Origin: a virus
Length of the DNA stretch: 44,178 nt
Strand: one strand, 5' to 3'
IMG/VR virus record: IMGVR_UViG_3300020119_000007
Span: 1-44,178 of that record
Part shown: in pieces, positions 808 through 42,768 of the stretch
Layout of the letters: each line of letters opens with the position of its first letter
Numbering within the stretch: the first letter of the stretch is position 1
Made by a program: the position numbers and the translations under genes
The notes under the pieces: generated by a model
Seen by the model: only the letters and a program-made list of their open reading frames with translations
What the model was told of the DNA's origin: nothing
Database searches by the model: none

Positions 808-1018
808 AGCGCGGCCTTGTAAGTTCGTTAACAGGTTGTACAACGAATTCGCCTTTATCTACGATTGCGTGCGCGTTGCAAGCTACGCACTTATAGCTAA
901 AGCCTTGTGTGCATCCTACGCCGCTATCAATCAATGCGCAAACACAGTCGGCACCGCTACGGCAGCGCGAAACAATGCCTAAGCCGTGGCACTGTGGGCA
1001 ATCTTTGTTAGTGGTCAT
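794..1018 (-). CDS. DnaJ-type zinc-finger-like small protein, 74 aa
   Basis: The product begins MTTNKDCPQCHGLG. The CxxCxGxG element resembles one half of the DnaJ cysteine-rich domain and occurs in many small phage proteins. Further Cys pairs (CRSGADCVC and CVAC) could complete two zinc sites. No J domain is present, so this is not a co-chaperone in the usual sense. The chosen ATG overlaps the end of the upstream gene (stop at 1008) by 11 bases. Two in-frame ATGs upstream (1042 and 1054) are alternatives. Exact role unknown. Confidence 0.7.
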   Translation of the reverse strand: MTTNKDCPQCHGLGIVSRCRSGADCVCALIDSGVGCTQGFSYKCVACNAHAIVDKGEFVVQPVNELTRPRYEHA

Positions 1019-1205
1019 ATTTGCTTTCTTCTTGCATGCGGTCATATTCGTCATAGATTGCCGAATCTACATCGGAATCTTCCAGTTGTTCGAAGTATTC
1101 GCGGTCTTCTTCGTTGCCTTTAAATTCGACGCTTTCAATAACGCCGAAGTCAAAAGAAACTTCCAAGTCCATTTTAACGCCGTCAATTTCGATGTTCATC
1201 AACAT
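1008..1205 (-). CDS. Small acidic protein, 65 aa
   Basis: A strong GGAGG ribosome site stands 5 bases before the ATG at 1205. The N-terminal half is strand-like (MNIEIDGVKMDLEVSFDF) and the C-terminal half is very rich in Asp and Glu. It is the first gene behind the promoter candidate at 1231-1259. Small acidic early phage proteins often act as inhibitors or DNA mimics of host proteins, but nothing here identifies a target. Confidence 0.75.
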   Translation of the reverse strand: MLMNIEIDGVKMDLEVSFDFGVIESVEFKGNEEDREYFEQLEDSDVDSAIYDEYDRMQEESKYDH

Positions 1206-1230
1206 AGTATCCTCCGTTTCGATAAGTAAG

Positions 1231-1259
1231 ATAGTACGTCAATGCTACGACGATTGCAA
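1231..1259 (-). promoter_or_regulatory. Promoter candidate TTGCAA-N17-TACTAT
   Basis: The minus strand carries TTGCAA (1254-1259), a 17-base spacer and TACTAT (1231-1236), just upstream of the GGAGG and ATG of the acidic-protein gene. The spacer and flanks (1235-1254 and 1256-1268) are repeated in swapped order at 3186-3218, which supports a functional or duplicated regulatory element. Confidence 0.5.
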
Positions 1260-1262
1260 GAA

Positions 1263-1595
1263 CTATTTAACTTCTTCGCCGCTGCAAGCTTTCTTAAACG
1301 AAGTTGGCGGTATTGGGCCGACATATACCGGCATACCTAGCGCATCGCTTACGACGAAGTATGCGCGTACAGGCTGGCCGAAGCGGTTAAGGCCGCTTAC
1401 GATACCGCATACGTTGCCGAATGGGCCAGGGCGGCTATATACGGTCGCGCTTTCGAATGCTACGGCGCTTGCGTTGTTAAGCGAAGCCTTGACCAGCGAT
1501 TCGGCAATAGCCTTAGACTTGTCGGCGTAGCTAACTTCGTCGGCGTGTGCCAGGCTTGCAAGGGTCATCAATACGGCAAAGATAATCGTTTTCAT
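1263..1595 (-). CDS. Secreted (periplasmic) hypothetical protein, 110 aa
   Basis: The N-terminus MKTIIFAVLMTLASLAHADE is a classic Sec signal peptide with an AHA cleavage site near residue 18. The mature part of about 90 aa has two cysteines that could form a disulfide in the periplasm. A GAAGGATG ribosome site lies inside the preceding 35-aa gene, whose TGA overlaps this ATG. Family not recognised. A periplasmic product in an early phage arm could concern superinfection exclusion or envelope modification, but this is inference. Confidence 0.75.
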   Translation of the reverse strand: MKTIIFAVLMTLASLAHADEVSYADKSKAIAESLVKASLNNASAVAFESATVYSRPGPFGNVCGIVSGLNRFGQPVRAYFVVSDALGMPVYVGPIPPTSFKKACSGEEVK

Positions 1596-1699
1596 TTCGG
1601 TTCATCCTTCTTTTGTTGACAGGGCCAACACTTCGACCATGCGGAACTATACCACTTTCCGCACATACCGCACAAGTTACCGTTGCGAATATACGTCAT
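1592..1699 (-). CDS. 35-aa CxxC zinc-ribbon mini-protein
   Basis: This very small frame reads MTYIRNGNLCGMCGKWYSS and continues to a second pair, CWPC, ending in a Lys-rich tail. Both ends overlap neighbours in the four-base ATGA manner: its ATG with the TGA of the gene ending at 1696, and its TGA with the ATG at 1595. Two CxxC pairs about 15 residues apart fit a single zinc ribbon. The ribosome site of the downstream signal-peptide gene lies inside it. Perfect coupling on both sides makes a real gene likely. Confidence 0.7.
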   Translation of the reverse strand: MTYIRNGNLCGMCGKWYSSAWSKCWPCQQKKDEPK

Positions 1700-2647: not shown

Positions 2648-2656
2648 GATGCGCGC

Positions 2657-2830: not shown

Positions 2831-2846
2831 GTTCAATACTCCAATG

Positions 2847-2867: not shown

Positions 2868-2872
2868 GATGG

Positions 2873-3536: not shown

Positions 3537-3542
3537 TCGTTA

Positions 3543-4468: not shown

Positions 4469-4498
4469 ATTTAGCCCACATTGATTGTTAGAAGTCGA

Positions 4499-5220: not shown

Positions 5221-5901
5221 TTATTCAGAACAACCGAACAACGATAGAACATCGTCGCGCTTATAGTATTCACCGTTAGCGCGTGTAACGATTGTGGCGA
5301 AGCGGATACCGTAGCGCGGTAAGCATTGGTCAAGCATATCCGCGTCAGGCGTTGCATGCACAATGTAGCCGTTTGCAGGGTTGCGCAAAATAGCGTTAGG
5401 CTTCGATACGTCTACGACGGTTTTAGCAGCCTGATTTGCCGGGTTAATGTGGGCATTGTCTGTAGGGGCTGGCACAACGGCGTTGAATACTTCGATTGCG
5501 GTAACAGGCTTCGGAATGCCGCTTGCGTCAAGCCTGTATGCAATGACAGAATCGACAGCAGGGGCCGCAGGCGCTACCAGGGGAACAAACGGGCCGCTAC
5601 CGCGTACGCTGTCATTGTCGAAGGCTATGTAAGCAGGGTCGAGCTTGATGCCCACACTTACATGCGGCCCGGTGCCTGGCAGGTTCTCGCGTGGCGCGGT
5701 ATCGAACGATTGCCGGTAAGCGCCCATTACATAGCCTTCCTGTTTCTTCGACAGGCCGCAGTGTTTAACCAGACGATGAAAGTTCGCTTCGTTAGGTTCA
5801 ACATGCCGACGTTCATACGCCCATTCGACAAGTTGCTTCCATGTTTCGCGCCCGATCATGACGCCGTTTGCTACGTCTATTTTAAGTTGTGCGATGTTCA
5901 T
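5221..5901 (-). CDS. Hypothetical protein, 226 aa
   Basis: AAGGAG precedes the ATG at 5901. Residues 1-70 are helical and basic (MNIAQLKIDVANGVMIGRET; KHCGLSKKQEGYVMGAYR) and look nucleic-acid-binding in character. A Pro/Ala/Val-rich linker covers about 100-150, and a compact C-terminal domain of about 60 residues ends LSLFGCSE. No family recognised. Because it ends next to the iteron-like region and lies in the PrimPol half of the genome, an origin-binding role is possible, but this is positional inference only. Two TGTGGGC motifs of opposite strand lie inside it, 202 bp apart. Confidence 0.72.
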   Translation of the reverse strand: MNIAQLKIDVANGVMIGRETWKQLVEWAYERRHVEPNEANFHRLVKHCGLSKKQEGYVMGAYRQSFDTAPRENLPGTGPHVSVGIKLDPAYIAFDNDSVRGSGPFVPLVAPAAPAVDSVIAYRLDASGIPKPVTAIEVFNAVVPAPTDNAHINPANQAAKTVVDVSKPNAILRNPANGYIVHATPDADMLDQCLPRYGIRFATIVTRANGEYYKRDDVLSLFGCSE

Positions 5902-7119: not shown

Positions 7120-9465
7120 CTACAGGCAAAATACTTTCGGCGTAGCGATCATGTAACACTTCGCCGTAGTGTTGTGGTCTTTCGACAGTGTAGCGCGGCT
7201 AACTTCTTGAAGGTCGCCACGGTCAACAAGGGTCTTTATTGCGATTTCAATTGCCTTGCCACTTCCCCGACGATCCTTGCGAAATACGGCGATTGCTGCC
7301 AGGCGACGCGACACATAGCTAAACGGTATGATACGTTCGCTGTGCAGTCCAATAGGCGACGTACTATACTTCTGTACTTCTGACCATGGCTTTACGATGT
7401 AGTCATGCACAACGCGAACAACTTCGTTCAACTGCTTCTGTTCGTCGTTGTCGCTTCCTACGTCGCCAGCATCGAAACGGCCTAACAGGTTACGAACGTC
7501 GGCAACAATGATCGTTGTAGCCCATGCAAAGATTTCGCTTGTAATCATAGGTTCGTATGGGTTGCATCCAACGGCGATCAACGAAGCCAGTTTAAGCGCT
7601 TTCATGTGGGCGCGGGACCAAAGTTGTTTCTTTACTTCGCGGTCTGAACCATTAGTATTGGAACGACAATATTCTTCGAATGCGTCGGCTTCTAAATCTA
7701 CGCCCTGTCGATACCCGACGTTAATTGCCTTGTGTTGGCTGTTCAACATCAACGCATGTGCGCAAAGGGTCGAAAGCATTTCGATAACTTCGAACGATGG
7801 CCGTACAGTAGAACCGTGCTTGTTCAACGGCGGTACGATGCCTTTAAACTCGATGGTAGTAAAACGCGGTAACAAGCCTTCCGAAATCATATCTTCGTTA
7901 AGCGCTTCGTAAAAGCGTTCCGGCGTCGATTCGCCCAGGACGGTAAAGGACGGCGCAAGAATTGCTGTTGTATTCTTATCGCGGTCGCTGTAAATAGTTG
8001 GCCGCATAATCTTACCTTCGCCCGACTTGTTATACAGGTCAAGCAACATACGGCGCAAACCTAACAAGTGCGGCGGGGCGTGTGGCGCGCACATTTGTTG
8101 CATCATCAAGCCGAATTCGCCAATCAAGCTTACAAAAGATACGGCGGTCTTTGACATATACTTTGTAAGTGCTTGCGACGATGAAATTTCGGCAGGGCCG
8201 ATGAATTCACTTGCAGCAGGCACAGCGCGCAAAACTTGGGCCATCAACTTATCAATACCGCTTGCGATTGCTTCTTTGCCAGTTCCGGTAGGGGCCAGCA
8301 ACAACACATATTGGTTAAGTCCTGTTCCAGATACGTTGTATGCCCTGCCCACAATACCGGCTACTAGGCCAAGCGCACCAGCAAGGGCGATTTCGGCAAC
8401 AGGCCGGGGCGCTTGTGCGTAAATAAACTTGGCGATTTCGCCGACCAGGCCAGGCGGCACACTGTATATACTGTTCAATGGTTGCGGCGTTGCTTGCTCG
8501 GTTTCGTGTTGCACTGGCGCGGCCTTCATTGTTCGTGCATCGTCTTTGCGGCGGCGCAGTTCTATAGCTTCGTTAACTTGATTACGCAATCCTTCGATAT
8601 CAACAGGCGGTAACATACGGTCAAAGCATTTTGCAAGCATGTAGTTAATACGATACTGCGCCCGCGATTTCTCGCGCTGGCCTAACTTCGACGACAAGAA
8701 CAACTTTTGCACTTGCTGGCGGTTTTCGCTGTAGAACGCGATAATATCAACCAGGGCTAAATCTGCTTCGGATTGCGAAGGATAATACTTACCCCAATCG
8801 CCGTTGTAATACAGGTCTGTAAATTTCTGTCCGTTCGCTGCTGTGCCTGCCATTTCCAATACGGCTTCGTCGGTAAGCTTTGCGTTTTCAAGGCCAGCGT
8901 AAAACGATTGTGCGTTACGACCCTTGCCCATTTGTTCCCAAAGGCCGTTAAGCAATTCGTCTTGGTCTACGATAGGCAAATTGTTGTAAAGATTGCCTGT
9001 CATCGTCATGTAACGTTGACTCGTATAGACTTCGATAGACGAACGCTTACGACCGGACGGCAACGAACCTTTGCAAATAATGTGCAAGCCCTGGCCCGAT
9101 GGCGAAAACTCCGAATACGAATTAAATTCGCGGTAAATGTCCTGTTGCCGCTGCATTACTTCGTCCGGTTTATCGTGTTTAAACGTACCGTCTTCTTTAG
9201 TTTCGTATGGGTTGTCCAGATCGACAAAGCCGAACGGGTCGCCTTCGGTTAATACAAACCCGATACCGGCGTAACCATTATTGTTTGTTGCGGCTGTAAC
9301 TGCTTCGTCAAACGTTGCCCATGTTGAAGGGTCGTTTACGTCGGCATGCCACAGATTGCGCGGCGAATACGGAACTTTGGTAGGCTTTGAACCTTCCTTT
9401 TCTTCGTATCTCCAAACAACCCATTGCGGCCAAACTCGCATTTCCTGCGGAATGTTCTGATACAT
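7120..9465 (-). CDS. Primase-polymerase (AEP/PrimPol) fused to helicase-like ATPase, 781 aa
   Basis: Residues 1-180 carry archaeo-eukaryotic-primase motifs: FGFVDLDN (metal-binding D-x-D), SPSGQGLHI (the SxxGxxH element) and IEVYTSQRYMTMTG. Residues about 210-290 resemble the helix-bundle domain of NrS-1-type and plasmid primases (GDWGKYYPSQSEADLALVDI). From about 335 on there is a DUF3987-like ATPase with Walker A APTGTGKEA. Such enzymes make primers and can extend them, and some initiate only at a defined template sequence. Start: AAGG and a TAA from the HTH gene immediately precede the ATG. It likely primes replication for the phage PolB. Confidence 0.88.
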   Translation of the reverse strand: MYQNIPQEMRVWPQWVVWRYEEKEGSKPTKVPYSPRNLWHADVNDPSTWATFDEAVTAATNNNGYAGIGFVLTEGDPFGFVDLDNPYETKEDGTFKHDKPDEVMQRQQDIYREFNSYSEFSPSGQGLHIICKGSLPSGRKRSSIEVYTSQRYMTMTGNLYNNLPIVDQDELLNGLWEQMGKGRNAQSFYAGLENAKLTDEAVLEMAGTAANGQKFTDLYYNGDWGKYYPSQSEADLALVDIIAFYSENRQQVQKLFLSSKLGQREKSRAQYRINYMLAKCFDRMLPPVDIEGLRNQVNEAIELRRRKDDARTMKAAPVQHETEQATPQPLNSIYSVPPGLVGEIAKFIYAQAPRPVAEIALAGALGLVAGIVGRAYNVSGTGLNQYVLLLAPTGTGKEAIASGIDKLMAQVLRAVPAASEFIGPAEISSSQALTKYMSKTAVSFVSLIGEFGLMMQQMCAPHAPPHLLGLRRMLLDLYNKSGEGKIMRPTIYSDRDKNTTAILAPSFTVLGESTPERFYEALNEDMISEGLLPRFTTIEFKGIVPPLNKHGSTVRPSFEVIEMLSTLCAHALMLNSQHKAINVGYRQGVDLEADAFEEYCRSNTNGSDREVKKQLWSRAHMKALKLASLIAVGCNPYEPMITSEIFAWATTIIVADVRNLLGRFDAGDVGSDNDEQKQLNEVVRVVHDYIVKPWSEVQKYSTSPIGLHSERIIPFSYVSRRLAAIAVFRKDRRGSGKAIEIAIKTLVDRGDLQEVSRATLSKDHNTTAKCYMIATPKVFCL

Positions 9466-9675
9466 TTAGCGCGCCTTCTTTGCGTTGTTCTTCAAGTAAG
9501 CGTTAAGCGTTTCAATAGTGTTTACGCCAGGGTTCAAGATATCGCCGCGTGCGAAGCTGTTAAGCCAGGCCACAGACACGCCAATATCTTCGGCAATCTT
9601 CGCTGTAGAAAGGGATTGCGGACGGTCAACAAGTAGTTGCCGCGTGCTGTCGCGCAGCGTTGTAACTTCGGTCAT
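9466..9675 (-). CDS. Small HTH DNA-binding protein, 69 aa
   Basis: Residues about 21-62 form a helix-turn-helix of the Cro/phage-repressor type: LSTAKIAEDIGVSVAWLNSF, followed by GDILNPGVNTIETLNAYL, the usual third to fifth helices. It is the first gene of the leftward unit. Its start lies at the divergent control region, where it could autoregulate and control the rightward replication operon, much as Cro does. It is also a candidate binder of the GTTGAT palindromes. There is no catalytic or peptidase domain, and no integrase nearby to suggest lysogeny. Confidence 0.78.
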   Translation of the reverse strand: MTEVTTLRDSTRQLLVDRPQSLSTAKIAEDIGVSVAWLNSFARGDILNPGVNTIETLNAYLKNNAKKAR

Positions 9676-9717
9676 GATGCGTAGCCTTGAATGTGGGCAA
9701 GATGGTTGATACCCCGC

Positions 9718-11109: not shown

Positions 11110-11137
11110 GCCCCGGTTGCCCACATACAGCCGGGGC
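11110..11137 (+). promoter_or_regulatory. GC hairpin with a TGTGGGC motif in its loop
   Basis: GCCCCGG (11110-11116) and CCGGGGC (11131-11137) form a 7-bp all-GC stem. Its 14-base loop contains GCCCACA (11119-11125), the genome-wide motif. No T tract follows, so it is not a standard terminator. It sits just before the ribosome site of the Sak4-like gene. Confidence 0.6.
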
Positions 11138-11837: not shown

Positions 11838-11869
11838 CCTGTCAAGCCGCATAATTGACAGGACTTTTT
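11838..11869 (+). terminator. Terminator-like inverted repeat
   Basis: CCTGTCAA (11838-11845) and TTGACAGG (11855-11862) form an 8-bp stem with a 9-base loop, followed two bases later by TTTTT. The moderate stem strength suggests partial termination between the ATPase and SSB genes. The embedded TTGACA is part of this stem rather than a promoter. Confidence 0.55.
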
Positions 11870-11885
11870 GCAAAAAGGTAATATC

Positions 11886-12647
11886 ATGGCTCAACTTATC
11901 GCAGCATTCAACGCGCATCAATTCGACCCAACCCAAGGCGGCGGAAGCCTGCCAGTTGGCAAACACCCGGTCGTAATCACCGAATCCGAAGTCAAGGCCA
12001 ACAGCGCCAACGACGGCGGCTATTTGGAACTGCTGTTGAAAATCATTGACGGCCCCGCCGCAGGTACTACAGGCGCTTACCGCCTGAATCTCTATAATAA
12101 GTCGGAAAAGGCCGTCGAAATTGCGCACCGTCAAATGTCCGCACTGTGCCACGTAATCGGCGTCTACAACGTGCAAGATACCCAAGCAATGCACAATCTG
12201 CCCTTCGTAATCGAAGTCGGCATGCAAAAGGGCGAAGAAGCGGCGCAGAAGGGTTACACCGAAGTTAAAAAAGTGTTCGACATTAACGGCAACGAACCAG
12301 GCAAAGCAGGTGCGGGCGCACAGCAAGCGGCCCCGGCGCAGGGTTTCGCCCAACAACAGCCGCAAGGCCAACCGCAGCAATTCGCCCAACAGCAACCGCA
12401 ACAACAGCAGCAACCAGCGGCGGGCGGTTGGGGCGGTCAACCGCAAGGCCAGCCAGCGCAGCAAGGCGGCGGCTTCCAGCAGCCAGCGCAGCAACAGCAG
12501 GCGCAAGGCGGCGCGGCATGGGGCCAGGGCGGGCAACCAGCGCAACAGCAGGCCCAACCGCAGCAGCAAGCGGCCCCGGCGCAGGCTGGCGGCTGGCAGC
12601 AGAACCAGGGACCGGCAGCAGGCGCACCGGCATGGGGTCAGAAGTAA
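11886..12647 (+). CDS. DUF669-like single-stranded DNA-binding protein with Q/G/A-rich tail, 253 aa
   Basis: I chose the ATG at 11886 with AAAAAGG upstream rather than the in-frame TTG at 11868. Residues 1-140 match the DUF669 type of phage SSB/recombination partner (MAQLIAAFNAHQFDP at the start; HRQMSALCHVIGV in the middle). Residues about 145-253 are low complexity Gln, Ala, Gly and Pro with spaced Trp-Gly units (GGWGG, AAWGQ, GGWQQ, PAWGQK). Unlike bacterial SSB there is no acidic DDIPF tip; that tip appears on the clamp homologue instead. A strong terminator follows. Confidence 0.8.
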   Translation: MAQLIAAFNAHQFDPTQGGGSLPVGKHPVVITESEVKANSANDGGYLELLLKIIDGPAAGTTGAYRLNLYNKSEKAVEIAHRQMSALCHVIGVYNVQDTQAMHNLPFVIEVGMQKGEEAAQKGYTEVKKVFDINGNEPGKAGAGAQQAAPAQGFAQQQPQGQPQQFAQQQPQQQQQPAAGGWGGQPQGQPAQQGGGFQQPAQQQQAQGGAAWGQGGQPAQQQAQPQQQAAPAQAGGWQQNQGPAAGAPAWGQK

Positions 12648-13211: not shown

Positions 13212-14094
13212 TCTCTCGGCCCCTGGCGTTGCAAAGCAAGTAGCAAGGCAGGTTCTTGAAGACGTAGACCGTTATTGCGCTACAACGTATGATGACGGCC
13301 ACCGTAACCACTTGGGCGCATCGTTGATCGGTCGCGAATGCAAACGCTTTCTTTGGTACGTATTCCGTTGGTGTCACAAAGAACAGTTTGACGGACGCAT
13401 GCAACGGCTGTTTAACCGTGGGCATCGCGAAGAAGCGCGCTTTATTGAATGGCTGGAAGGTATCGGCGCTAAAGTTTGGTTTGAAAATCGCGACGTAGCG
13501 CCGAACGAAAAAGGCGAATACCCGCAGTATCGCATTACCGGGGCAAAAGGCCACTTCGGCGGATCGTTGGACGCGATCATTATTTTGCCAGAACGTTACG
13601 GCATTTCCGAACCTATTTTGGGCGAATTTAAAACCAACGGCACGGGTTCAGGTTTCGATAAGCTGGAAAAAGACGGAATGGCCGTAGCCAAAGCCGAACA
13701 CTACGCCCAAACTTCAACATACGGAAAGAAATACAATTTTCGCTATGTTCTTTACATGAACATTAACAAGAACGATGACAGCATACACGTTGAACTTGTA
13801 AAGCTGAATCATCAACTTGGCGAACAAATGGAAACCAAGGCTGAATTGATTATTTTTTCCCAGGTTCCGCCGCCTAGGTTATCGGACAACATTACGTTCC
13901 GAAGCTGCGCGTATTGTTCAATGAAAGAAATTTGCCACAAAGGCGCAGTTGTCGAACGCAATTGCCGTAGCTGCAAAAACGCAACACCTGTCGAAAATGC
14001 GCAATGGTTTTGTAGCGTGCATAACGACGTAATCCCAAAACATATTATTCCGCTGGCCTGCGATTCTTACAAGTCAATTACCGATAATGTCTAA
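13144..14094 (+). CDS. Fe-S PD-(D/E)XK exonuclease (Cas4/RecB-like), 316 aa
   Basis: The nuclease core reads GGSLDAIII (catalytic Asp) followed by ILGEFKT (the ExK). A Cys in IGRECKRFLWY near residue 60 plus three Cys in CAYCSMKEIC near 260 form the typical cluster pattern of Cas4/AddB iron-sulfur nucleases. A further C-terminal CxxC...C region is present. Proteins of this kind resect DNA ends for recombination and packaging precursors. I prefer the ATG at 13144; an in-frame TTG at 13120 exists. Its stop overlaps the helicase start by 8 bases. Confidence 0.85.
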   Translation: MQNQQNETNGQAGSSNGGKQSVDLSAPGVAKQVARQVLEDVDRYCATTYDDGHRNHLGASLIGRECKRFLWYVFRWCHKEQFDGRMQRLFNRGHREEARFIEWLEGIGAKVWFENRDVAPNEKGEYPQYRITGAKGHFGGSLDAIIILPERYGISEPILGEFKTNGTGSGFDKLEKDGMAVAKAEHYAQTSTYGKKYNFRYVLYMNINKNDDSIHVELVKLNHQLGEQMETKAELIIFSQVPPPRLSDNITFRSCAYCSMKEICHKGAVVERNCRSCKNATPVENAQWFCSVHNDVIPKHIIPLACDSYKSITDNV

Positions 14095-15745
14095 CATTTA
14101 TATTCCGCGATGGTATCAAAACGAAGCCGAATATTCGGTCTTCGATTACTTCGAAAGCGGTAAGCGCGGAAACCCTGTAGTTGCGATGCCAACCGGAACC
14201 GGCAAAAGCATCGTAATTGCAAACCTTATTCGCCGCATTTTTTGCATGCATCCTAACCAGCGCGTAATGATGCTTACGCACGTTAAGAAGTTGATTCAAC
14301 AGAACGCCGAAAAGTTAATGTCTGTCTGGCCGACTGCGCCGCTTGGCATTTATAGCGCGGGATTGAAAAGCCGCGATATGATTATGCCTATTGTGTTTGG
14401 CGGTATTCAATCAGTAGCAAAAGCTATTGCGCGCAGCTTGGAAGACGAAGGCAACCAGCTATTGCCGCAGCATATGAAACATTTTGGATGGCGCGATCTA
14501 ATCTTTATCGACGAAGCCCATTTGTTAAGTCCTAACGAAGATAGCGAATATCAATACGTAATTGCAGAATTAAAAAAGATTAACCCATATCTTAAAGTAA
14601 TCGGCTTTACGGCAACGCCTTACCGCATGAAACAGGGCATGATTACAGACGATGACGGAATTTTTACCGACATTTGTTACGACATTACCGGCATTGAAGC
14701 ATTTAACCGCATGATTGCCGAAGGCTTTATGTCGCCAATCATCGCCAAGCCGACTAGAACAATTATCGACGTTTCCGGCGTAGGTATGACAGGCAGCGAA
14801 TTCAATCAAAAGCAATTGAATAACGTTGTCGATACCGACGAAGTTACTTACAACGCCGTAAAAGAAATGGTAGAATACGGGGCTAACCGTAATTCATGGA
14901 TGGTATTCGGGTCAAGCATTGAAAACGCCGAACACATTAACGCAATGCTGCAAAGCTTCGGCGTTAATTCTGTCGTTGTGCATTCGAAGTTAAAAGATTC
15001 CGACCAACGTATTTTAGATTTTCAGAACGGGCAGTATCAATGCATCGTAAATAAGGATATGCTTACAACCGGGTTTGACCATCCCCCGATTGATTTTATA
15101 GCCGATTTGCAGCCCACAATGTCGCCCGGCAAACACGTTCAAAAATGGGGGCGTGGTACGCGGCCTTCGCCAGCGACGTATAAGAACAACTGTCTAGGTT
15201 TGGACTTCGCGGGCAATGTTCGTAGGCTTGGGCCGATCAATGACCCTGTTAAGCCGCGTAAGCCAGGCCAGGGCGGGGGCGATGCACCAATACGTATTTG
15301 CGATTCATGCGGCGCATACAATCATGCATCGGCGCGCACTTGCTGCAACTGCGGCGTAGAATTCAGTTTCGAAACAAAGATATTCGGCACAGCAGGAACC
15401 GAAGCATTCTTACGTAGTGATGCCCCTATCGTCGAATACTTCAAAGTAGCCAAAGTAATTTATAACCTACATGAAAAGAAGGACGCCAACGGAACATTAA
15501 CTAGCCCGCCATCAATTAAAGTGTCGTACTTTTGTGGGCTGCATATGTTTCATGAATGGGTTATGCTAGAGCATCCCGGCATGGCGTCGAAGCGCGCCCG
15601 CGATTGGTGGCGTTCAAGGCATCAAGAAGAACCGCCGCCGACAACGCATCAAGCTTTGCAACGTGTTTCAGAACTAAGAAAGCCAGCGCAAATAAGAGTT
15701 TGGGTTAATAAGAAATATCCAGACATTTTAGGTTACGAATATTAA
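14087..15745 (+). CDS. SF2 DEAH-box helicase with zinc ribbon, 552 aa
   Basis: Motif I AMPTGTGKS (about residue 30), motif II FIDEAH (about 145), motif III GFTATPYR (about 168), a motif V-like MLTTGFDHP and motif VI WGRGTRPSP (about 355) define an SSL2/UvsW-type superfamily 2 helicase. After the helicase core, CDSCGAYNHASARTCCNCG forms a zinc ribbon. A ~100-residue C-terminal region (YFCGLHMFHEWVMLEHPG) is shared by related phage helicases. It probably opens the duplex at the fork or remodels branched DNA, and is coupled to the nuclease by overlap. Confidence 0.88.
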   Translation: MSNIYIPRWYQNEAEYSVFDYFESGKRGNPVVAMPTGTGKSIVIANLIRRIFCMHPNQRVMMLTHVKKLIQQNAEKLMSVWPTAPLGIYSAGLKSRDMIMPIVFGGIQSVAKAIARSLEDEGNQLLPQHMKHFGWRDLIFIDEAHLLSPNEDSEYQYVIAELKKINPYLKVIGFTATPYRMKQGMITDDDGIFTDICYDITGIEAFNRMIAEGFMSPIIAKPTRTIIDVSGVGMTGSEFNQKQLNNVVDTDEVTYNAVKEMVEYGANRNSWMVFGSSIENAEHINAMLQSFGVNSVVVHSKLKDSDQRILDFQNGQYQCIVNKDMLTTGFDHPPIDFIADLQPTMSPGKHVQKWGRGTRPSPATYKNNCLGLDFAGNVRRLGPINDPVKPRKPGQGGGDAPIRICDSCGAYNHASARTCCNCGVEFSFETKIFGTAGTEAFLRSDAPIVEYFKVAKVIYNLHEKKDANGTLTSPPSIKVSYFCGLHMFHEWVMLEHPGMASKRARDWWRSRHQEEPPPTTHQALQRVSELRKPAQIRVWVNKKYPDILGYEY

Positions 15746-21160: not shown

Positions 21161-21188
21161 TTTAAATACTCCTTATTGTGGGCAACGC

Positions 21189-29122: not shown

Positions 29123-29134
29123 TGTGGGCTTTCT

Positions 29135-30406: not shown

Positions 30407-31936
30407 TTACGCTGGCATGCCCACATTAGGCAGATACGGGAAGAACGTTGCCAACATCGTGTAGCCCAGGGCGTTTTCTGCGCCTGCTGCTTCCAACGGC
30501 AGCATGATTGCGGCGTCTTTTTCGACGTTCAACCGGCCACCGCCCAGGCCCAACAGCGGAACATCGAAAGCAACGCCCGCGTTGTCATGCGCTGCAATGA
30601 TGTTCAACGAAACATCGGCGTTATTGCGAACGGCGCGCACAGCTTGCACGGTCGTAAAATACGCCGTTACGCTGCCCGAAACTTCGAAGTCGCCCGCAGT
30701 TGCATCGAATGCGCCCAGGACAGCAACGGCCTTCGACGGCGAAACGTTGTTATTGATTGCCAACGTCATTTCGGTAACGTAGCCGAACAACGATGCGTTG
30801 TTGATTTCCAGCGGGTCAACGATGTTCATTCGCAGGCGGTAGATATCCGACGAAGTGTTGTACGCCGATTCGCCAGGAATTGCGATACGCGCACCGTCTT
30901 TGATGCCTTCCGCGCCGGTAACGAATTCGTTGTCCATTGCAACGAAAGTCAAATCGGCGTTGAGTTTGTCGGCCTGCGGAATGTTCAACGTAAATTCATT
31001 GGGGATTGCGCCCAACAGGTATTCGGCTTGCGTACCGTCGTCGTCTTCGCCCAACTGACGTTCGATTTGATACGAACGGCGAACGATAAGCGAAGGGTCT
31101 TTTTCGTTGCGCAGAACGACGCCGAAGAAAATACGAAGCGTCTTGCCGGTTCCAGGTTCGCTGGTCGCTACGAACGTGGTTTCGCTGAAAGCGATTTCCG
31201 TTGCCGAAATTGACTTGATACGACCGTAGCCGGGATCGTTCGAAGCAAACGAAGTTCCCGCGCTGTCGCCACCGATGAAAATCCATTCGCCAGGCGTAAG
31301 GCCCAACGTCGTAAGGTTCGTTGCAGCCGAAACCATTTTTACGCCGGTTGCGCTGGCAACCAACGATACATCGGTTGCCGGGAATTGGAAGCCGACAGCT
31401 TCGAATTTCGCGGCGGCTGGCGGCGCAGCTTCGGCGGCAAGCACCTTCGTTACGGTGACAAGGCCGGAAGCAACGGCGGAAACTTGGGCAAGCCCGTTGT
31501 TAGCTGCGATACCGAATGCCGTTGCCAAAACCAGATGGCCGACTTTGAATACGCCCAGGCCAGCGGCGGCGGTAAAGCCATTTGCGCCGTTGATCGCGGT
31601 AACGACAACTTTGCTCGCGTTCAATGGTTCGGTTGAAGGCTTTTCGCGGGCAGTTGCGAAGAAGAAGCCTTGCAACAGACGTTGAAGGTTCGATTGCGTG
31701 TAGTCGGTATTGAAGCCGCCCGATGCGTCCAAATCGGTAACGGTTCCTTTCTGACGTTGGCGCGATGCGTTGATCGGATTCCGGGCTACGTTGGTAATTT
31801 CGCCGCCCAGGTCGCTATACGAGTTCGGTTCAAGACCGCGCCAAATTGCGTCGGCACCGTCAACGCCTGGCAGCACTTTAAGCGTTGCTTCTTCGGCGTA
31901 AGCCAAGCCCGTAACATTGGAATCAATTTTATTCAC
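30407..31936 (-). CDS. Major tail tube protein, 509 aa
   Basis: The start is GTG at 31936 with AAGGAG upstream. The sequence is beta-rich (PNEFTLNIPQADKLNADLTF; IVDPLEINNASLFGYVTEMTLAINNNVSPSKA), matching siphophage tail tube proteins. It sits between the tail terminator and the chaperone, the usual order. At 509 residues it is about twice the common length. The middle (about 120-270) includes a domain reading VKMVSAATNLTTLGLTPGEW that may be an inserted surface domain. A terminator follows. Confidence 0.82.
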   Translation of the reverse strand: MNKIDSNVTGLAYAEEATLKVLPGVDGADAIWRGLEPNSYSDLGGEITNVARNPINASRQRQKGTVTDLDASGGFNTDYTQSNLQRLLQGFFFATAREKPSTEPLNASKVVVTAINGANGFTAAAGLGVFKVGHLVLATAFGIAANNGLAQVSAVASGLVTVTKVLAAEAAPPAAAKFEAVGFQFPATDVSLVASATGVKMVSAATNLTTLGLTPGEWIFIGGDSAGTSFASNDPGYGRIKSISATEIAFSETTFVATSEPGTGKTLRIFFGVVLRNEKDPSLIVRRSYQIERQLGEDDDGTQAEYLLGAIPNEFTLNIPQADKLNADLTFVAMDNEFVTGAEGIKDGARIAIPGESAYNTSSDIYRLRMNIVDPLEINNASLFGYVTEMTLAINNNVSPSKAVAVLGAFDATAGDFEVSGSVTAYFTTVQAVRAVRNNADVSLNIIAAHDNAGVAFDVPLLGLGGGRLNVEKDAAIMLPLEAAGAENALGYTMLATFFPYLPNVGMPA

Positions 31937-32776: not shown

Positions 32777-33289
32777 TTAAGCCCGATAGGTACGAAGGAA
32801 GATGCCCACACTAGGCGCGGCACCGAACAGCGGGGCAAGCAGAGCTTCAACCGATGAAATTTCAGGCAAGCCAGTTGCTGTAACCTTGTCCGAAAACTTT
32901 TGCGTAATTGGGCCTACTGTGTCTTCGATAAGCAAAGGGCCACCCGCATATGTGGGCTGCAATACAATGCCTTCTTTTGCTTCGATGACTAAGCGCATTT
33001 GCGCTTCTTTCAAGACCGAAGGAATCAACGTAGGGTCTTGCTCAAACGTGTCAATAACGACGTTGTATCTTGGAAATTGCAGAACTTGAATCGGACTTAC
33101 TTTAGTGCCTTGATACCGAGCGCGTTGCGCTTCAAGGTAGTCCATTGCCGTAATCATCAACGGCGTTACATCGGCGTCAACAGCGGACAATACAACGCCG
33201 CGTGCTAAAGCATAAGCGCGGGCTTCGTCAATCGTAACGTAGGAATTAGCGTTAGCAACGATTGAACCGTCTTCAACAATGATACTCAT
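32777..33289 (-). CDS. Head-tail adaptor (DnaT_2/gp6-like) protein, 170 aa
   Basis: The start reads IVEDGSIVANANSYVTIDEA and ARAYALARGV, the signature of the family annotated as putative DnaT-like ssDNA-binding protein. In phages this family is thought to be a head-tail adaptor of the gp6/gp15 fold. The context (between capsid-associated and closure genes) supports the adaptor role rather than DNA replication. Confidence 0.78.
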   Translation of the reverse strand: MSIIVEDGSIVANANSYVTIDEARAYALARGVVLSAVDADVTPLMITAMDYLEAQRARYQGTKVSPIQVLQFPRYNVVIDTFEQDPTLIPSVLKEAQMRLVIEAKEGIVLQPTYAGGPLLIEDTVGPITQKFSDKVTATGLPEISSVEALLAPLFGAAPSVGIFLRTYRA

Positions 33290-35285: not shown

Positions 35286-36005
35286 TTACTCCTTGTTCGC
35301 TTCGCGTTTCGCCGACAAGGTAGCCGCAAGGTCACGCGGATTCATTGACGAATACGAAGCAGGTTTATCGGTTTGGTTTTGTTGACCGGCACCGCCGTTC
35401 GTCTTACTGAATCCATCTTTTGCGGCACCGCCGCCAGATGCTTTGCTGCCCACAATGATACCGGAATATTCTTTGTTTGCAACGAATTCTTTTGAAAGAT
35501 CGTCGATAGTCATAGCCGAAGCTTTACCATCGGCCCCCAGGATACGCAACGTAGGTTCGTCGCCGTCGAAATCGACAATCAAACGTTCCTTGATGGCCTT
35601 TTGCATAAGCGCCGGTACGGTCGAAATCTTCGCTGCCAATGCGGAAGCGGTTCCGTCGATAAGCGTTTTCTTCGTGTGTTCGGTAAGCTTCGCAATTTTC
35701 GCGTTGCTTGCGGTTTCGGCTTCTTCGCTCTTTTTTTTCCATGCCTTTTCGAGCGTTTCGATATCGCCTTTCTTTTTAGCGCCAAGATCGGCGCTTGTTT
35801 CGACTTGCTCGCGCAGTTCGTCGCGCTCGCGTTCGGCGTCTTCGCGGCGTTGCTTTTCGCGGTCGCGTGCGCGCTTCAATGCGCCTGTGTCTTCGTCGCC
35901 GTCAATGTCCAAGACGTATTCGCCGTCTTTTTCCTTGTATTCGCTTTGAATGTCTTTCGACTTCTTTTCGAATTCTTCTTTGGTCAATTTGCGTTTAAGT
36001 GCCAT
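35286..36005 (-). CDS. Scaffold protein, 239 aa
   Basis: Residues about 40-135 form a long, highly charged coiled coil (RAREKQRRED-like, then TLEKAWKKKSEEAETASNAK). The C-terminal part is Gly/Ser/Asn-rich and ends in a basic helix (PRDLAATLSAKREANKE) of the type that docks to capsid subunits. It lies immediately before the capsid gene. AAGGAG precedes the ATG. Confidence 0.87.
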   Translation of the reverse strand: MALKRKLTKEEFEKKSKDIQSEYKEKDGEYVLDIDGDEDTGALKRARDREKQRREDAERERDELREQVETSADLGAKKKGDIETLEKAWKKKSEEAETASNAKIAKLTEHTKKTLIDGTASALAAKISTVPALMQKAIKERLIVDFDGDEPTLRILGADGKASAMTIDDLSKEFVANKEYSGIIVGSKASGGGAAKDGFSKTNGGAGQQNQTDKPASYSSMNPRDLAATLSAKREANKE

Positions 36006-36040: not shown

Positions 36041-37141
36041 TCAGCGGGTTAAAATTAGTTTAAGCTTTGCTTGAAAACCTTCGACTGTAAGCGGGTTAAC
36101 TTCGTCGAATTGCGGCAAGTCCGTTTTGTTTAGTTTTTTACGCCGCAAAGCATCGGCCTTGTTTGCGCCAAGTATATCATCTTGCACGCTGTTAGGTTGG
36201 TTATTAATGAAGTCAAAATAACTTGACGGTGCTACGTTATCATCGCCAGAAACGACCGGCACCGTTTTAGAACGGCAGCGTATATGCGCCGGGGGCAACG
36301 GGCCAGCCCCGTAATTAAAAACACGGTTGTTTCGGCCTTTGCAAATTTCAGTTGTGCCGCTGTCGATTACGGAAACCCAACGATAGCGGCCATAAAACAC
36401 GGACGCAATGCCAGCTTGAAGAACCGACGTTGTATGCTGAATTACGGTTGCTGTAACGGCCCCTGCCTGGCTATTAACCCTTGCAAAAATGCCGTCGCGA
36501 TAGTTGCGCGCTTTGGTCCCTGTAATTTCGGCAAGCACTGCGGCAACTGTCGAACGATTGGCGTAACCTTTGCGTACAGCGTTTTCAACAGCCATTGACG
36601 ACGATGCTACGAAAGCGGATATGAACGGAAGCGGAAGAATGCCGTTAGCAGGGATAGGCGCGTTGATGATAGCAGCCCAAAGCTTCGATGAATCGCCGTC
36701 ATTCTGTGGGCTTAAGAACCAGAACAGCGGATACAGACTATCATTTTCATTTTCGGCTTGTGCAGCTTCTAAAGCTTCGTCGCTTTCTTCTTCGTCCGCT
36801 GGTTCTTCGTCTTCGCCTTCCGGCCTTTGCAATGTTGCGAAAATGCTTTTAGAAACGACAATATCAGCGTTCATAAAATCTTGCATTTCGGCGATAAGCT
36901 TTGCCGTGTAAGCGCTATAAACTCGGTTTTGAATTTGGCGCAGTTCGACAAGAAAAGACCGAAGCGCCGTTTTACTCAAAGCGTCAAGTGTACCAAAGCG
37001 AAGCTTGCCGAACAAGACTAGAAATTCTTTGTCAAGTTCACGCAATACTTTATTGAATTCTATAGCATGATAAGCCTTTACGCCTTCTACGTAAATTTGA
37101 TGGCGCGTTAAAACTTCAAACAATCTTGTGTTAGTTACCAT
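36041..37141 (-). CDS. Head morphogenesis protein (SPP1 gp7/Mu F-like), 366 aa
   Basis: The C-terminal part WVSVIDSGTTEICKGRNNRV, later PLPPAHIRCRSKTVPV, is the core signature of the phage head morphogenesis family. The N-terminal 120 residues are helical, followed by a very acidic stretch (about 110-135, EGEDEEPADEEESDE). These minor head proteins bind the portal and DNA and can leave the capsid with it. Here it is separated from the portal gene by a fibre-like gene. Confidence 0.85.
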   Translation of the reverse strand: MVTNTRLFEVLTRHQIYVEGVKAYHAIEFNKVLRELDKEFLVLFGKLRFGTLDALSKTALRSFLVELRQIQNRVYSAYTAKLIAEMQDFMNADIVVSKSIFATLQRPEGEDEEPADEEESDEALEAAQAENENDSLYPLFWFLSPQNDGDSSKLWAAIINAPIPANGILPLPFISAFVASSSMAVENAVRKGYANRSTVAAVLAEITGTKARNYRDGIFARVNSQAGAVTATVIQHTTSVLQAGIASVFYGRYRWVSVIDSGTTEICKGRNNRVFNYGAGPLPPAHIRCRSKTVPVVSGDDNVAPSSYFDFINNQPNSVQDDILGANKADALRRKKLNKTDLPQFDEVNPLTVEGFQAKLKLILTR

Positions 37142-38223: not shown

Positions 38224-38235
38224 ACGATGCCCACA

Positions 38236-39753: not shown

Positions 39754-41328
39754 TTAGGTTGGATGCGTTGTTTTAATCTTACGGGCGAAACGGTTATTGC
39801 CCTTTAATACACGATAGCGAACCATATCATAAGGATGGTCTTCGGCGGAAGTATCTACGTCGTCGAATTTGATAGGGTCACGCGGCAATGTGGGGATCGT
39901 GTCTATAGAAGCTATGCAGCAGTCCATAAAATAAAGCGCTGGCCCTTCGCCCTTCGTAGCAGCTTCCAGACGGTCGCGCACCAACTGCAAGCCGTTACGG
40001 CGGCTACCTGGCGACTTGTCCGATTCCGTCCAACGAATGCCCTTATCCGACATTTTCTTTTCAATGGTATCTACGTCAGATTCGCGAACGTCCCGAATCT
40101 GATTATCCGCTGGCCCCGGCCATGGTTGCGACGTAATCCAACCGTTCAACATCATGACCACTTCGCGATCTTTAATACCTTGGGCTACGTCGCCCGCGCT
40201 TAACTTCAATCCTTTATTCGTTCCAATTTCTTTTGTTCCGTACCATTCGGCGAATTGAATCAACGAACCGGCAGGCGGGCAGAAAGTGCGGGTCGTACCG
40301 TCTTTGTAATGTATCGTTGCTTCTTCGCCGTTGGCTTCTGCAAACCAGCCCACACTAAACGGGTGCGACGATCCCCAATCGAAAGCGCGATCAATAAGCC
40401 AGGTCGGCGGGATTACGAAGCGCGGTACAACGTGCGTTTTGATATTCCATACGTCATCAAGTGCGCCGCCCGTTACGATATCCCAATCACCATACAACCA
40501 AGCCTTGCGCAAGTTTTCGTCAGTGATACTTTCAAGTTCCGCGATGTATTCAGGGCGAAGATAAATGTTTTCGCGATACGAACCAAAGATAGTAACTTGC
40601 GTCTTAACTACGAAGTCGTTTTCTTGCGTTTGCGGGTTGAATACTTCAACTTGCGTTTTCAAAACAACGCCGCGTGGCGCTTTGTTAATGAAACGACGCT
40701 TAACCCAATTATGACCAGGGCCATTAGGGTTAGTAGTGCTGAATACTTCAAGCGGGATCGGCGGCAAAGGCTTGCCATCCGGCGTTAGATAGTTTCCGTT
40801 CTTATCCTTCGGCGTGTCGCGTTCTGGTTCAAAAGACGAACGATTTACCGACATAAACTTATCGTAAAGTTCGGACGTTGGATATTTGGTCAATTCGTTC
40901 CAGCCTACGAATGGGTATTCGTGGCCGTGAAAGCCGTCATAGTCGCCGATCTTCTTTACGTGCCTAAACAAAAGTTCTTCGCCTGTCGGCCAAACCCATT
41001 TGTAAGACGCGGCGGATTCCATGAACTTAGCACCGTCGAAAAACTTTGGAAACCATTTTTTAGATTCGGCGACAAGGCCCGACAGGTTATCGAATTCAAG
41101 GTCAAAGATAACGCCGCGCCAGTATTCGCCATAGCCCAGGCCAACACGGCGACGGAAGCGCATAAGTTGCGTAATGGTCTTACCTGGCCCGCGTGCGCCT
41201 TCGTAAAGGGTATGCGAACAGCGCGTATCAATTGCCAGTTCTTGCGATGAATTTGGTATAGGTTGCCAAACTACGTCGAATGCTGGCGGCGCTACCTTCG
41301 TTGCCTTAGTGGCGGCTAGTGCTAACAT
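39754..41328 (-). CDS. Terminase large subunit, 524 aa
   Basis: HTLYEGARGPGKT about residue 43 is the Walker A motif. YPFVGWNELTKY about residue 140 is the Walker B with catalytic Glu. VFSTTNPNGPGHNWVKRRF is a coupling (motif III) segment. In the C-terminal half LIDRAFDWGSSHPFSVGWF begins the RNase H-like nuclease domain with a metal-binding Asp. It overlaps the small subunit by 23 bases and has AAAGGGA before the ATG. Packaging strategy cannot be read from the window. Confidence 0.92.
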   Translation of the reverse strand: MLALAATKATKVAPPAFDVVWQPIPNSSQELAIDTRCSHTLYEGARGPGKTITQLMRFRRRVGLGYGEYWRGVIFDLEFDNLSGLVAESKKWFPKFFDGAKFMESAASYKWVWPTGEELLFRHVKKIGDYDGFHGHEYPFVGWNELTKYPTSELYDKFMSVNRSSFEPERDTPKDKNGNYLTPDGKPLPPIPLEVFSTTNPNGPGHNWVKRRFINKAPRGVVLKTQVEVFNPQTQENDFVVKTQVTIFGSYRENIYLRPEYIAELESITDENLRKAWLYGDWDIVTGGALDDVWNIKTHVVPRFVIPPTWLIDRAFDWGSSHPFSVGWFAEANGEEATIHYKDGTTRTFCPPAGSLIQFAEWYGTKEIGTNKGLKLSAGDVAQGIKDREVVMMLNGWITSQPWPGPADNQIRDVRESDVDTIEKKMSDKGIRWTESDKSPGSRRNGLQLVRDRLEAATKGEGPALYFMDCCIASIDTIPTLPRDPIKFDDVDTSAEDHPYDMVRYRVLKGNNRFARKIKTTHPT

Positions 41329-41776
41329 TGAGCAATTCCCTTTGTTGGCGTTCCGCTTTCATTTCCCATTCGTCGTTTGTTCCAAGGTCTTTCACGACCA
41401 TTACTTTATTTGTAACGACGTTGGTAACAATGTTTGTATTTGGCTTTTCAATGAAGCCGCGAACTTCGGCGTACAGCTTTGCAATCTTTACAAAGTCTTC
41501 TGTAACTACGTAGTCCTTTTGCAGTCGTTCCCAAATCTTGCGGCAAAGTTCGGCCTTACCTGGCAAGAACGCGCCTTCGCCTTCTTCGCTAGTAATGCGT
41601 TCTTGTTCGGCTAATACAAAGGGGTCTTTCGGCCATGTGTGGGCAGCGCGTAGCGCCAGGCCGGTATCGTCGGGAAAAACTTGAAGCGCTGCCTTGAATG
41701 CGTCGGCAGGATTTTTAAGCAGTTCGACAGCAAAGGCTGTCTTGCATTCTTCGTTGTTGATTCGGTCGTCGATCAT
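41306..41776 (-). CDS. Terminase small subunit, 156 aa
   Basis: Position before and overlapping TerL, length and composition fit TerS. An N-terminal helical region (NEECKTAFAVELLKNPADAF) is followed by a segment reminiscent of phage TerS HTH proteins. A charged C-terminus follows. A promoter candidate (41808-41836) lies 32 bases upstream. It should recognise the packaging start site. Confidence 0.82.
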   Translation of the reverse strand: MIDDRINNEECKTAFAVELLKNPADAFKAALQVFPDDTGLALRAAHTWPKDPFVLAEQERITSEEGEGAFLPGKAELCRKIWERLQKDYVVTEDFVKIAKLYAEVRGFIEKPNTNIVTNVVTNKVMVVKDLGTNDEWEMKAERQQRELLNVSTSRH

Positions 41777-41807
41777 GGCGCATGCTTTCTGAAATTCTCA
41801 TAGCGCC

Positions 41808-41836
41808 ATGATACGACAGGGCTTGACCGTAGGCAA
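41808..41836 (-). promoter_or_regulatory. Promoter candidate TTGCCT-N17-TATCAT before terminase
   Basis: The minus strand reads TTGCCT (41831-41836), 17 bases, TATCAT (41808-41813), placed in the 62-bp gap between the Rz gene stop (41839) and the TerS start. It would drive packaging and head genes separately from lysis. Confidence 0.6.
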
Positions 41837-41838
41837 GA

Positions 41839-42339
41839 CTAATCTACTTTGCAAGCCTTTTGATACACTACAACCAGGCCGCGCAGTTCGTCGATACGAA
41901 TGTTAGCGGCGTCCAAATCGCCGCCTAGTTCGATAATTTTTCCTGCAACTCCGTCAAGATTGACTTCGCCCGCTGTAGGCCCGTTGGTTGGTTCGGTTGC
42001 GTTGCTGGCCGCATCGCGTGCGCTGGCGGCGGGGGCGGGGTTGGCGTTGGTACAGGAACGTTTGACGCGCAACCGGCCAAGTTCAGCGTTAGCAGCGTCA
42101 AGACGGCCAGTAAGTGCGGCAACTTTCGATTCTGTTTCATTTCCTACCCCTTCGATAGCTTTATTCGTAGCGGCTTCTTTCGCCGCAACCTTTGGAATTT
42201 CTTTAACGATGGTTTTATTAACCTTCGCTTCGTTGACGGCGCGTTCGTGCCTTACGCCCATTGCAAACGCCATCATTGATAGCAATGCAGCGCCAGAAAC
42301 ATACATGATGATTCTGTTAGCAGTATTCGAAGCCATCAT
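41839..42339 (-). CDS. Rz: Rz-like inner membrane spanin, 166 aa
   Basis: A single N-terminal membrane segment (RIIMYVSGAALLSMMAFAMG) is followed by a long helical periplasmic region (KVNKTIVKEIPKVAAKEAAT; ALTGRLDAANAELGRLRVK) as in i-spanins. The lysis cassette context and the nested lipoprotein frame confirm it. It pairs with the Rz1 lipoprotein to fuse inner and outer membranes after endolysin action. Confidence 0.87.
   Translation of the reverse strand: MMASNTANRIIMYVSGAALLSMMAFAMGVRHERAVNEAKVNKTIVKEIPKVAAKEAATNKAIEGVGNETESKVAALTGRLDAANAELGRLRVKRSCTNANPAPAASARDAASNATEPTNGPTAGEVNLDGVAGKIIELGGDLDAANIRIDELRGLVVVYQKACKVD
41925..42140 (-). CDS. Rz1: Rz1-like outer membrane lipoprotein spanin, nested in Rz, 71 aa
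   Basis: Entirely inside the Rz gene in another frame. The signal sequence MKQNRKLPHLLAVLTLLTLN ends at the lipobox LAGC, with the lipidated Cys at residue 24. A proline-rich stretch (VPVPTPTPPPPP) typical of o-spanins follows, then a helical end. Fully embedded Rz1 genes are well known from lambda. Confidence 0.87.
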   Translation of the reverse strand: MKQNRKLPHLLAVLTLLTLNLAGCASNVPVPTPTPPPPPAHAMRPATQPNQPTGLQRAKSILTELQEKLSN

Positions 42340-42768
42340 TTAACTAACCTTCTTTCCGCTTCGAAGCTGCGCCAGGCTAAGGCCGTTCGTGTATTGGAAG
42401 TGGGCCAGTTCTTTAAAACTTTCCCAATCGCCCGCCCATTCAAGCCCACATGCTTTACCGATGGCCCCGATTTGCTTCCACAGCTTGCCATCTTCGCCCG
42501 ACGTTCCCCATACGGGTTTGCCATTACGAAGCGGTACAACGTCGAATGCGCAACGGAAGTTATGCCAGGAATACCCGCCCTTCGCGTTGGTTACGACGTT
42601 GCCGGGGGCTGTACGGCCTTGGGCGTAAAGTGCGTCTTGACTCTCGTAATCGCGGAAGGTAGACGTTACGAGAATGTCGATACCTGCGGCCTTGCATGCG
42701 TCTAGGAACGCGGCGGCTTTGGACGACACAGCTTTGTCCAAATCTTCTAGCTTACGACTGTTTATCAT
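42340..42768 (-). CDS. Endolysin, M15-type L-Ala-D-Glu peptidase, 142 aa
   Basis: The ATG at 42768 has AAGGAAA upstream and overlaps the holin gene by 17 bases. STFRDYESQDALYAQGR (with the zinc-site region), SWHNFRCAFDVVPL (the H...D zinc ligands) and LAHFQY (catalytic/zinc His) are the M15C/CwlK-VanY signature. It cleaves peptide cross-bridges of peptidoglycan. There is no signal peptide, so release depends on the holin. Confidence 0.9.
   Translation of the reverse strand: MINSRKLEDLDKAVSSKAAAFLDACKAAGIDILVTSTFRDYESQDALYAQGRTAPGNVVTNAKGGYSWHNFRCAFDVVPLRNGKPVWGTSGEDGKLWKQIGAIGKACGLEWAGDWESFKELAHFQYTNGLSLAQLRSGKKVS

Follow-up and report, generated by a model that had tools for sequence, protein, structure and literature searches.

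The 44,178-nucleotide stretch of viral DNA analyzed here (the window; IMG/VR record IMGVR_UViG_3300020119_000007) is a complete 44-kb genome related to Pseudomonas phage 73. It carries a genome-wide array of the asymmetric word TGTGGGC. We found that the word is strongly enriched, that it is evenly spaced within each strand, that a few one-mismatch words behave as functional variants, that the array is conserved with turnover of its positions, and that it tracks one type of primase, the phrog_3022-type PrimPol-helicase encoded by the window. We consider it quite likely that the sites are primer-initiation (single-strand initiation) sites for this enzyme, serving both strands. Direct binding by PrimPol, the position at which primers would start, and use on both strands are what we infer from sequence and from analogy with studied primases.

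An enriched word, evenly spaced on each strand

The window contains 29 exact copies of TGTGGGC between positions 993 and 42450, 13 on the + strand and 16 on the - strand. An earlier note on this DNA, made from the letters alone, had given the same number over the same span. It had also proposed a comparison with Markov models: these predict 2.4 (order 2) or 2.6 (order 3) copies, not about 30. The note's claim of over-representation was therefore right, while its size (about 5 expected, five-fold) was too low, as the excess is about 11-fold. TGTGGGC is the most over-represented 7-mer of the window (z 15.7), and the top 8-mer is TGTGGGCA (16 copies versus 0.6 expected). Our recount agreed that the following base is A or T at 28 of the 29 sites. 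The exact matches are as follows.

993..999, +, TGTGGGC site
4474..4480, -, TGTGGGC site
5448..5454, +, TGTGGGC site
5650..5656, -, TGTGGGC site
7605..7611, +, TGTGGGC site, the sole copy with G next
8347..8353, -, TGTGGGC site
9692..9698, +, TGTGGGC site
11119..11125, -, TGTGGGC site
15112..15118, -, TGTGGGC site
15533..15539, +, TGTGGGC site
17758..17764, -, TGTGGGC site
18880..18886, +, TGTGGGC site
19664..19670, -, TGTGGGC site
21177..21183, +, TGTGGGC site
21348..21354, -, TGTGGGC site
23455..23461, +, TGTGGGC site
24188..24194, -, TGTGGGC site
26989..26995, +, TGTGGGC site
27752..27758, -, TGTGGGC site
29123..29129, +, TGTGGGC site
30419..30425, -, TGTGGGC site
32804..32810, -, TGTGGGC site
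32951..32957, +, TGTGGGC site
35448..35454, -, TGTGGGC site
36705..36711, +, TGTGGGC site
38229..38235, -, TGTGGGC site
40348..40354, -, TGTGGGC site
41638..41644, +, TGTGGGC site
42444..42450, -, TGTGGGC site

Within each strand the gaps are under-dispersed, with a coefficient of variation (CV) of 0.34 on the + strand and 0.39 on the - strand (p about 1e-4 or below for each). The smallest same-strand gaps are 2087 bp (+) and 1176 bp (-), and sites on opposite strands lie as little as 147 bp apart. The relevant spacing is the per-strand interval, about 2.6 to 3.4 kb in the window and 2 to 3.5 kb more broadly, and the overall interval of about 1.5 kb given in the earlier note did not hold up as the meaningful one. 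In a test that is blind to enrichment, TGTGGGC was the most evenly spaced per strand of the 876 7-mers with enough copies in the window.

The same behavior was observed in the relatives described below. Across 16 pooled genomes, 58 same-strand pairs were closer than 1.5 kb, versus 217 opposite-strand pairs. This was replicated in 67 IMG/VR loci, where 120 same-strand pairs were closer than 1 kb and strand shuffles led us to expect 220. The 757 same-strand gaps from 22 phages have a median of 2.4 kb (quartiles 1.8 to 3.2 kb), and 6% of them are shorter than 1 kb, versus 31% expected. Several records entered this gap test as slices of 39 to 50 kb handled as circular, which is a small approximation. 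Even spacing was significant in 21 of the 22 phages (Fisher p <= 1.3e-3). The remaining one, Vibrio phage 1.117.O (L014), uses two spellings, TGTGGTCA and TGTGGCCA; neither is even alone, and their union is (CV 0.37/0.32, p < 1e-4).

One-mismatch words in the GGC-type genomes were tested for avoidance of canonical sites on the same strand. TGTGGGA, TGTGGGG, and TGTGGGT avoid them on their own strand (z 4.1 to 5.1), and their placement relative to opposite-strand sites shows no significant effect. CGTGGGC avoids them on the same strand (z 4.4) and also on the opposite one (z 4.2). Abundant one-mismatch words in these genomes, among them TGTCGGC (201 copies) and TGCGGGC (177 copies), are placed at random relative to canonical sites. 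The in-silico specificity is roughly [T/C]GTGGG, with C preferred next. Three sites in the window belong to the avoiding classes.

576..582, -, TGTGGGG, probable functional variant in the longest - strand gap (same-strand avoidance of the class in pooled genomes, z 5.0)
13417..13423, +, CGTGGGC, probable functional variant in the longest + strand gap (class z 4.4 on the same strand and 4.2 on the opposite strand, hence less certain)
39889..39895, +, TGTGGGG, probable functional variant in a long + strand gap (class z 5.0)

Adding them gives 32 window sites with CVs of 0.28 and 0.28, a gain that is not fully independent evidence, because the window was itself in the genome pool used to define the variant classes. 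Missed copies had been named in the earlier note as something that might destroy the alternation; the near-copies strengthen the pattern by filling long same-strand gaps.

Orientation switches at 25 of 28 steps in the window (permutation p = 1.4e-5), so the alternation reported in the earlier note exists as a pattern. It does not stand as an independent feature. Most of it reappears when the - sites are rotated against the + sites, with a mean of 22.6 circular changes versus 26 observed (p 0.09), and in each of 21 genomes the alternation fell within the range of rotation (all p >= 0.097). Orientations seem to alternate because each strand is evenly filled on its own, and the alternation is mainly a by-product of overlaying the two strands. 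We also considered that it might itself be functional, with opposite-strand sites acting in pairs. Such pairing would fit the 25 of 28 changes, the 30 changes in 32 circular steps seen when the variants are included, and a weak overall surplus relative to rotation (Stouffer z 1.7 over the 21 genomes), but rotation accounts for the alternation in every genome tested, and the distance between opposite-strand sites is not constrained and can be as small as 147 bp. Pairing is therefore very improbable as the function, though a weak residual coupling between the strands may exist.

By gene context, 16 of the 32 sites lie on the coding strand, 11 on the anti-coding strand, and 5 outside called open reading frames. 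Thus, the sites are largely independent of gene direction, as the earlier note had stated. There is a slight surplus on the majority coding strand (167 versus 126 sites in majority-coding regions), which would fit an array that arose through codon usage, restriction pressure, or some other mutational or word bias. Such an origin is extremely unlikely, because the Markov expectation falls far below the 29 copies observed, word bias does not generate even spacing, the same word occurs in genomes of very different composition, and the sites turn over yet remain even. The strand excess was also considered as a sign of replication direction and was rejected, since it becomes smaller with the TGTGGG[A/G/T] and CGTGGG variants included and in part reflects the coding strand.

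Arrays and primases in related phages

An array is present in 22 of 22 examined phages with a phrog_3022-type primase, whose hosts include E. coli, Rhodobacter, and Synechococcus. All the arrays keep the TGTGG core, and the 3' part is lineage specific and changes along the PrimPol family. TGTGGGC is the first or second 7-mer in DLP_2, KP1, PaMx42, phage 73, and PSV3, and its enrichment is strong in Erwinia phage AH03, Rhodobacter phage RcTitan, Sphingomonas phage Birtae, and Achromobacter phage Axy19, as is that of TGTGGG(C) in Lokiviruses of Acinetobacter and E. coli. Phages that are more distantly related have other, equally regular spellings: TGTGGTCA in 9g, JG012, VspDsh_1, and Siara, TGTGGTCA together with TGTGGCCA in 1.117.O, TGTGGTTA in CAjan, CTGTGGA(C) in Erebus, CTGTGG in RHEph26, TTGTGGGT in BP63, and CTGTGGCA in Ssp-JY38. 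As in the window, no 7-mer of phage 73, AH03, or RcTitan is spaced more evenly per strand than TGTGGGC; sister words rank first for evenness in Loki, 9g, and VspDsh_1, and in Halfdan, Erebus, Siara, CAjan, BP63, and Ssp-JY38 the top-ranking 7-mer is a TGTGG or GTGG word. The Septimatrevirus genomes are not independent tests, because they are related to one another. The independent support is that from distant lineages with other spellings.

We also surveyed 69 IMG/VR PrimPol loci, each longer than 9 kb and with a GC content of 0.34 to 0.57. TGTGGGC was a clearly enriched TGTGGNN word (z > 5) in 47 of them, and most of the remaining loci were led by a TGTGGG word. Where TGTGGGC was weak (e.g., L038, L062, and L063), TGTGGG was mostly the leading or near-leading GTGG-containing hexamer, in a test limited by short contigs.

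Conservation in place decays with divergence. Between genomes at 68 to 78% nucleotide identity, 60 to 65% of sites are in place, versus 12 to 24% for control words, and near 54 to 61% identity only 0 to 4 of 10 to 15 sites are; the counts are small in both comparisons. Thus, positions move while the spacing is kept, which indicates selection with turnover. The earlier note had proposed looking in related phages for the word at shifted positions, and relatives with the same PrimPol family do have it there. Another word that is over-represented in several relatives, AAGGAGT, was set aside because it resembles a Shine-Dalgarno sequence. Several PSV3 records, including L006, have fragmented replication genes and are possibly error-prone assemblies.

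Among the array carriers, the phrog_3022 profile matches the primases of the window, 9g, Erebus, RHEph26, Siara, BP63, and Ssp-JY38; in the other array phages, the family was assigned by full-length similarity to, or alignment with, the window protein. BP63 and Ssp-JY38 had been chosen for their Cas4 genes, and both proved to carry an array and a phrog_3022 primase. Their primases (L102:47244-49778 and L107:26701-29238) belong to the family by profile and are not among the tblastn hits listed for the window PrimPol. Five genomes were negative. RcMcLean, which shares the DNA polymerase family (E 1e-172) and has a different primase (PF09250, PriCT_2, VapE-like), has no array. The Moraxella phage Mcat27 showed no enrichment or even spacing of TGTGG words, and no gene of the phrog_3022 primase type was seen in it. 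In NrS-1, phi105, and Bas82 the primases are of family phrog_1829 and an array is absent, which rules out an array common to all PrimPols with a helix-bundle domain. In these 22 positive and 5 negative genomes, the array was found only in phages that share the phrog_3022-type primase. Host, virion type, and most other genes vary among the array-positive phages; that the array tracks the primase amid this variation, and does not follow those adjacent replication or recombination genes that the genomes allow to be separated from it, points to PrimPol.

Chi sites, which are short, asymmetric, G-rich, and over-represented and act by strand, offer another model: a G-rich one-stranded word would be read by the phage Cas4/RecB-type exonuclease and superfamily 2 (SF2) helicase to initiate recombination-dependent replication. 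Genes for Cas4, SF2 helicase, Sak4, and the single-strand DNA binding protein (SSB) are all present in the window. However, Mcat27 has all four families (Cas4, SF2 helicase, Sak4, and SSB-like, with phrog_1990 E 1e-123, phrog_16 E 3e-98, phrog_124, and phrog_2300/6015) and has no array, and the pyrimidine run described below, 5' of GTG in some arrays, is not expected of Chi. We regard a Chi-like role as unlikely.

A second candidate reader is the small helix-turn-helix (HTH) protein encoded next to PrimPol, for which the word would be a double-stranded site of a genome-wide silencer, stoperator, or organizer. In most relatives an HTH gene (Cro/CI-like, of varying family) lies directly upstream of the PrimPol gene; in RcTitan it is seemingly fused to an endonuclease, and a CII-like gene adjoins the NrS-1 primase. 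This adjacency speaks for the HTH protein, but the motif is asymmetric and nonpalindromic, binding to double-stranded DNA would not explain why sites repel one another only on the same strand, site orientation is not tied to transcription, RcMcLean has an HTH gene beside its different primase and no array, and the HTH proteins belong to different families. A role for them as readers is quite improbable.

PrimPol as the presumed reader

The genes on which the priming-site reading draws are listed here with the profile evidence for each.

7120..9465, -, PrimPol-helicase, phrog_3022, 781 aa, presumed reader of the sites (phrog_3022 profile E 1.7e-257, aa 1-772)
8620..8871, -, helix-bundle region of PrimPol, aa 199-282, presumed template-recognition part (sub-threshold PF22763 match; helical in the AlphaFold model)
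9466..9675, -, small Cro/CI-like HTH protein adjoining PrimPol, the rival reader (phrog_9425 E 7e-4)
11868..12647, +, single-strand DNA binding protein, DUF669 (phrog_6015 E 8e-84, PF05037)
15756..16937, +, DNA polymerase processivity factor (clamp) (phrog_947 E 7e-59)
16946..19051, +, DNA polymerase, phrog_1252, presumed primer extender (phrog_1252 E 9e-202)

Profile searches also identified the Sak4, Cas4, and SF2 helicase genes mentioned above. A 127-bp terminal direct repeat (1-127 and 44052-44178) leaves about 44,051 unique bases, and because of it we take the window to be a complete, circularly closed assembly. KP1, PaMx42, and phage 73 are among its nearest named relatives (PrimPol identity 62 to 65%). 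Compared by replication genes and gene order only, the window resembles Septimatrevirus, the genus of phage 73, with gene order alike and replication genes 60 to 67% identical. Flanked by the DNA polymerase gene on one side and the tail genes on the other, the region 19082-21160 has GDSL-esterase and endosialidase-N-terminal-like matches and, by sequence, probably encodes a tailspike. CCTGGC/GCCAGG is strongly over-represented across the window (70 versus 20 expected, z 10.9), as are related words such as CCTGGGC.

Residues 10-263 of the window PrimPol match the NrS-1 primase (E 2e-26). An AlphaFold model (mean pLDDT 87) found as its best match the NrS-1 N300 structures (about 300 columns), followed by the pRN1 primase, and a structure search with the model matched the C-terminal part to MCM-type AAA+ helicases. 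D82, D84, and H128 align with D78, D80, and H115 of NrS-1, so the catalytic acidic pair and histidine of AEP/PrimPol enzymes are conserved, and E145 is invariant among family members. A Pfam search found the NrS-1 head and tail domains (PF22761 and PF22762) to be absent from PrimPol. The annotated primase of phage 9g (L012:19683-21950) is without the N-terminal ~80 residues and has K for the second catalytic Asp in the alignment, which may reflect a misannotated start codon or a real loss.

The most efficient recognition sites of NrS-1 PrimPol are 5'-GTGA-3' and 5'-GTGG-3'; its helix-bundle domain binds the site, and synthesis begins mainly at the first base upstream (PMC8718748). ORF904 of pRN1 needs GTG, which its helix-bundle domain binds, and the first dinucleotide forms opposite the two bases upstream (PMC8076596). 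The asymmetric TGTGG core of the arrays contains GTGG, and evenness holds within each strand only. The suggestion in the earlier note that the word is a PrimPol template recognition site on both strands gains support from this match to the NrS-1 sites and from the tracking of the phrog_3022-type primase, as far as sequence and analogy can speak. GTGG in the arrays is preceded by T (or C), and further upstream bases are pyrimidines in BP63, RHEph26, and Erebus; a pyrimidine stands next to TGTGGG at 51 of 52 sites in BP63 and next to CTGTGG at 36 of 37 in RHEph26. Such a pyrimidine run would be expected at positions where primers begin with purines. The GGC group differs in having A/T-rich bases upstream.

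We propose that, as the phage genome is unwound, the PrimPol-helicase would meet the word on single-stranded template, where its helix-bundle domain would recognize GTGG and the lineage-specific 3' part (GCA here). Priming by the catalytic domain would begin opposite the bases directly 5' of GTG, where a conserved T (in some cases C) stands, and the primer would thus have a purine first. The phage DNA polymerase and clamp would extend it towards the 5' end of the template. Selection would maintain at least one site per 2 to 4 kb on each strand, and the sites would set the starts of Okazaki-like fragments or of complementary-strand synthesis on displaced strands.

Several observations weigh against this reading. 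NrS-1, which has the best-studied related enzyme, has no such array, and the negative set is small, comprising the five genomes named above. The genomes compared do not separate the clamp from the motif or from PrimPol. The helix-bundle match to PF22763 (E 2.4e-5, aa 231-263) is below the curated cut-off, and R249, K251, and Y261 of NrS-1 have no one-to-one alignment in PrimPol. Even spacing would fit any role that depends on each strand being covered, a Chi-like one included, and in most of these phages PrimPol has the small HTH protein for a neighbor.

Comparison with known systems

Starts of lagging-strand synthesis are usually ascribed to very short primase words that occur by chance. This phage family appears to place longer, dedicated start sites regularly along each of the two strands, with a spelling that changes together with the primase. 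It is possible, and we suggest it tentatively, that these phages hard-wire synthesis starts on both strands through a selected, primase-coevolving array with a site every 2 to 3.5 kb per strand, perhaps without one unique origin. If so, both strands could be copied discontinuously from fixed places, and the boundaries of Okazaki-like fragments could be read from sequence. Primase specificity could likewise be inferred from sequence alone, with about eight spellings visible already, and PrimPol template recognition would become testable in many natural enzyme/site pairs, including those of CAjan (TGTGGTTA) and Halfdan (TGTGGGCA), which infect laboratory E. coli. We found no published report of such an array in the open-licence full-text papers searched.

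NrS-1 PrimPol, whose recognition sites are 5'-GTGA/GTGG-3' and TTTGGTTA (PMC8718748), shares with the window enzyme a homologous catalytic and probable helix-bundle region and the GTGG core, and its start mainly at the base 5' of the site is the start proposed here. However, its genome has no enriched or even array, whereas the window word is longer, genome wide, and strand balanced; the window PrimPol has an MCM-like C terminus, and the window encodes a separate DNA polymerase and clamp. In pRN1 ORF904, too, the helix-bundle domain of an AEP primase reads GTG and the primer forms opposite bases 5' of it, but this is a plasmid enzyme with a three-base motif, and the portion of the account consulted describes no array (PMC8076596). 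In RSF1010, the AEP primase RepB', encoded by the mobile element itself, reads the ssiA and ssiB sites as primer starts (PMC4538821). That plasmid has two sites, in contrast to about 15 per strand along the whole window genome. Unlike Chi of the RecBCD type, the window word tracks a primase and not a nuclease or helicase. Mycobacteriophage stoperators resemble the window array in being an asymmetric word repeated over a phage genome. The array differs from them in that its orientation is unrelated to transcription and its spacing is even on each strand.

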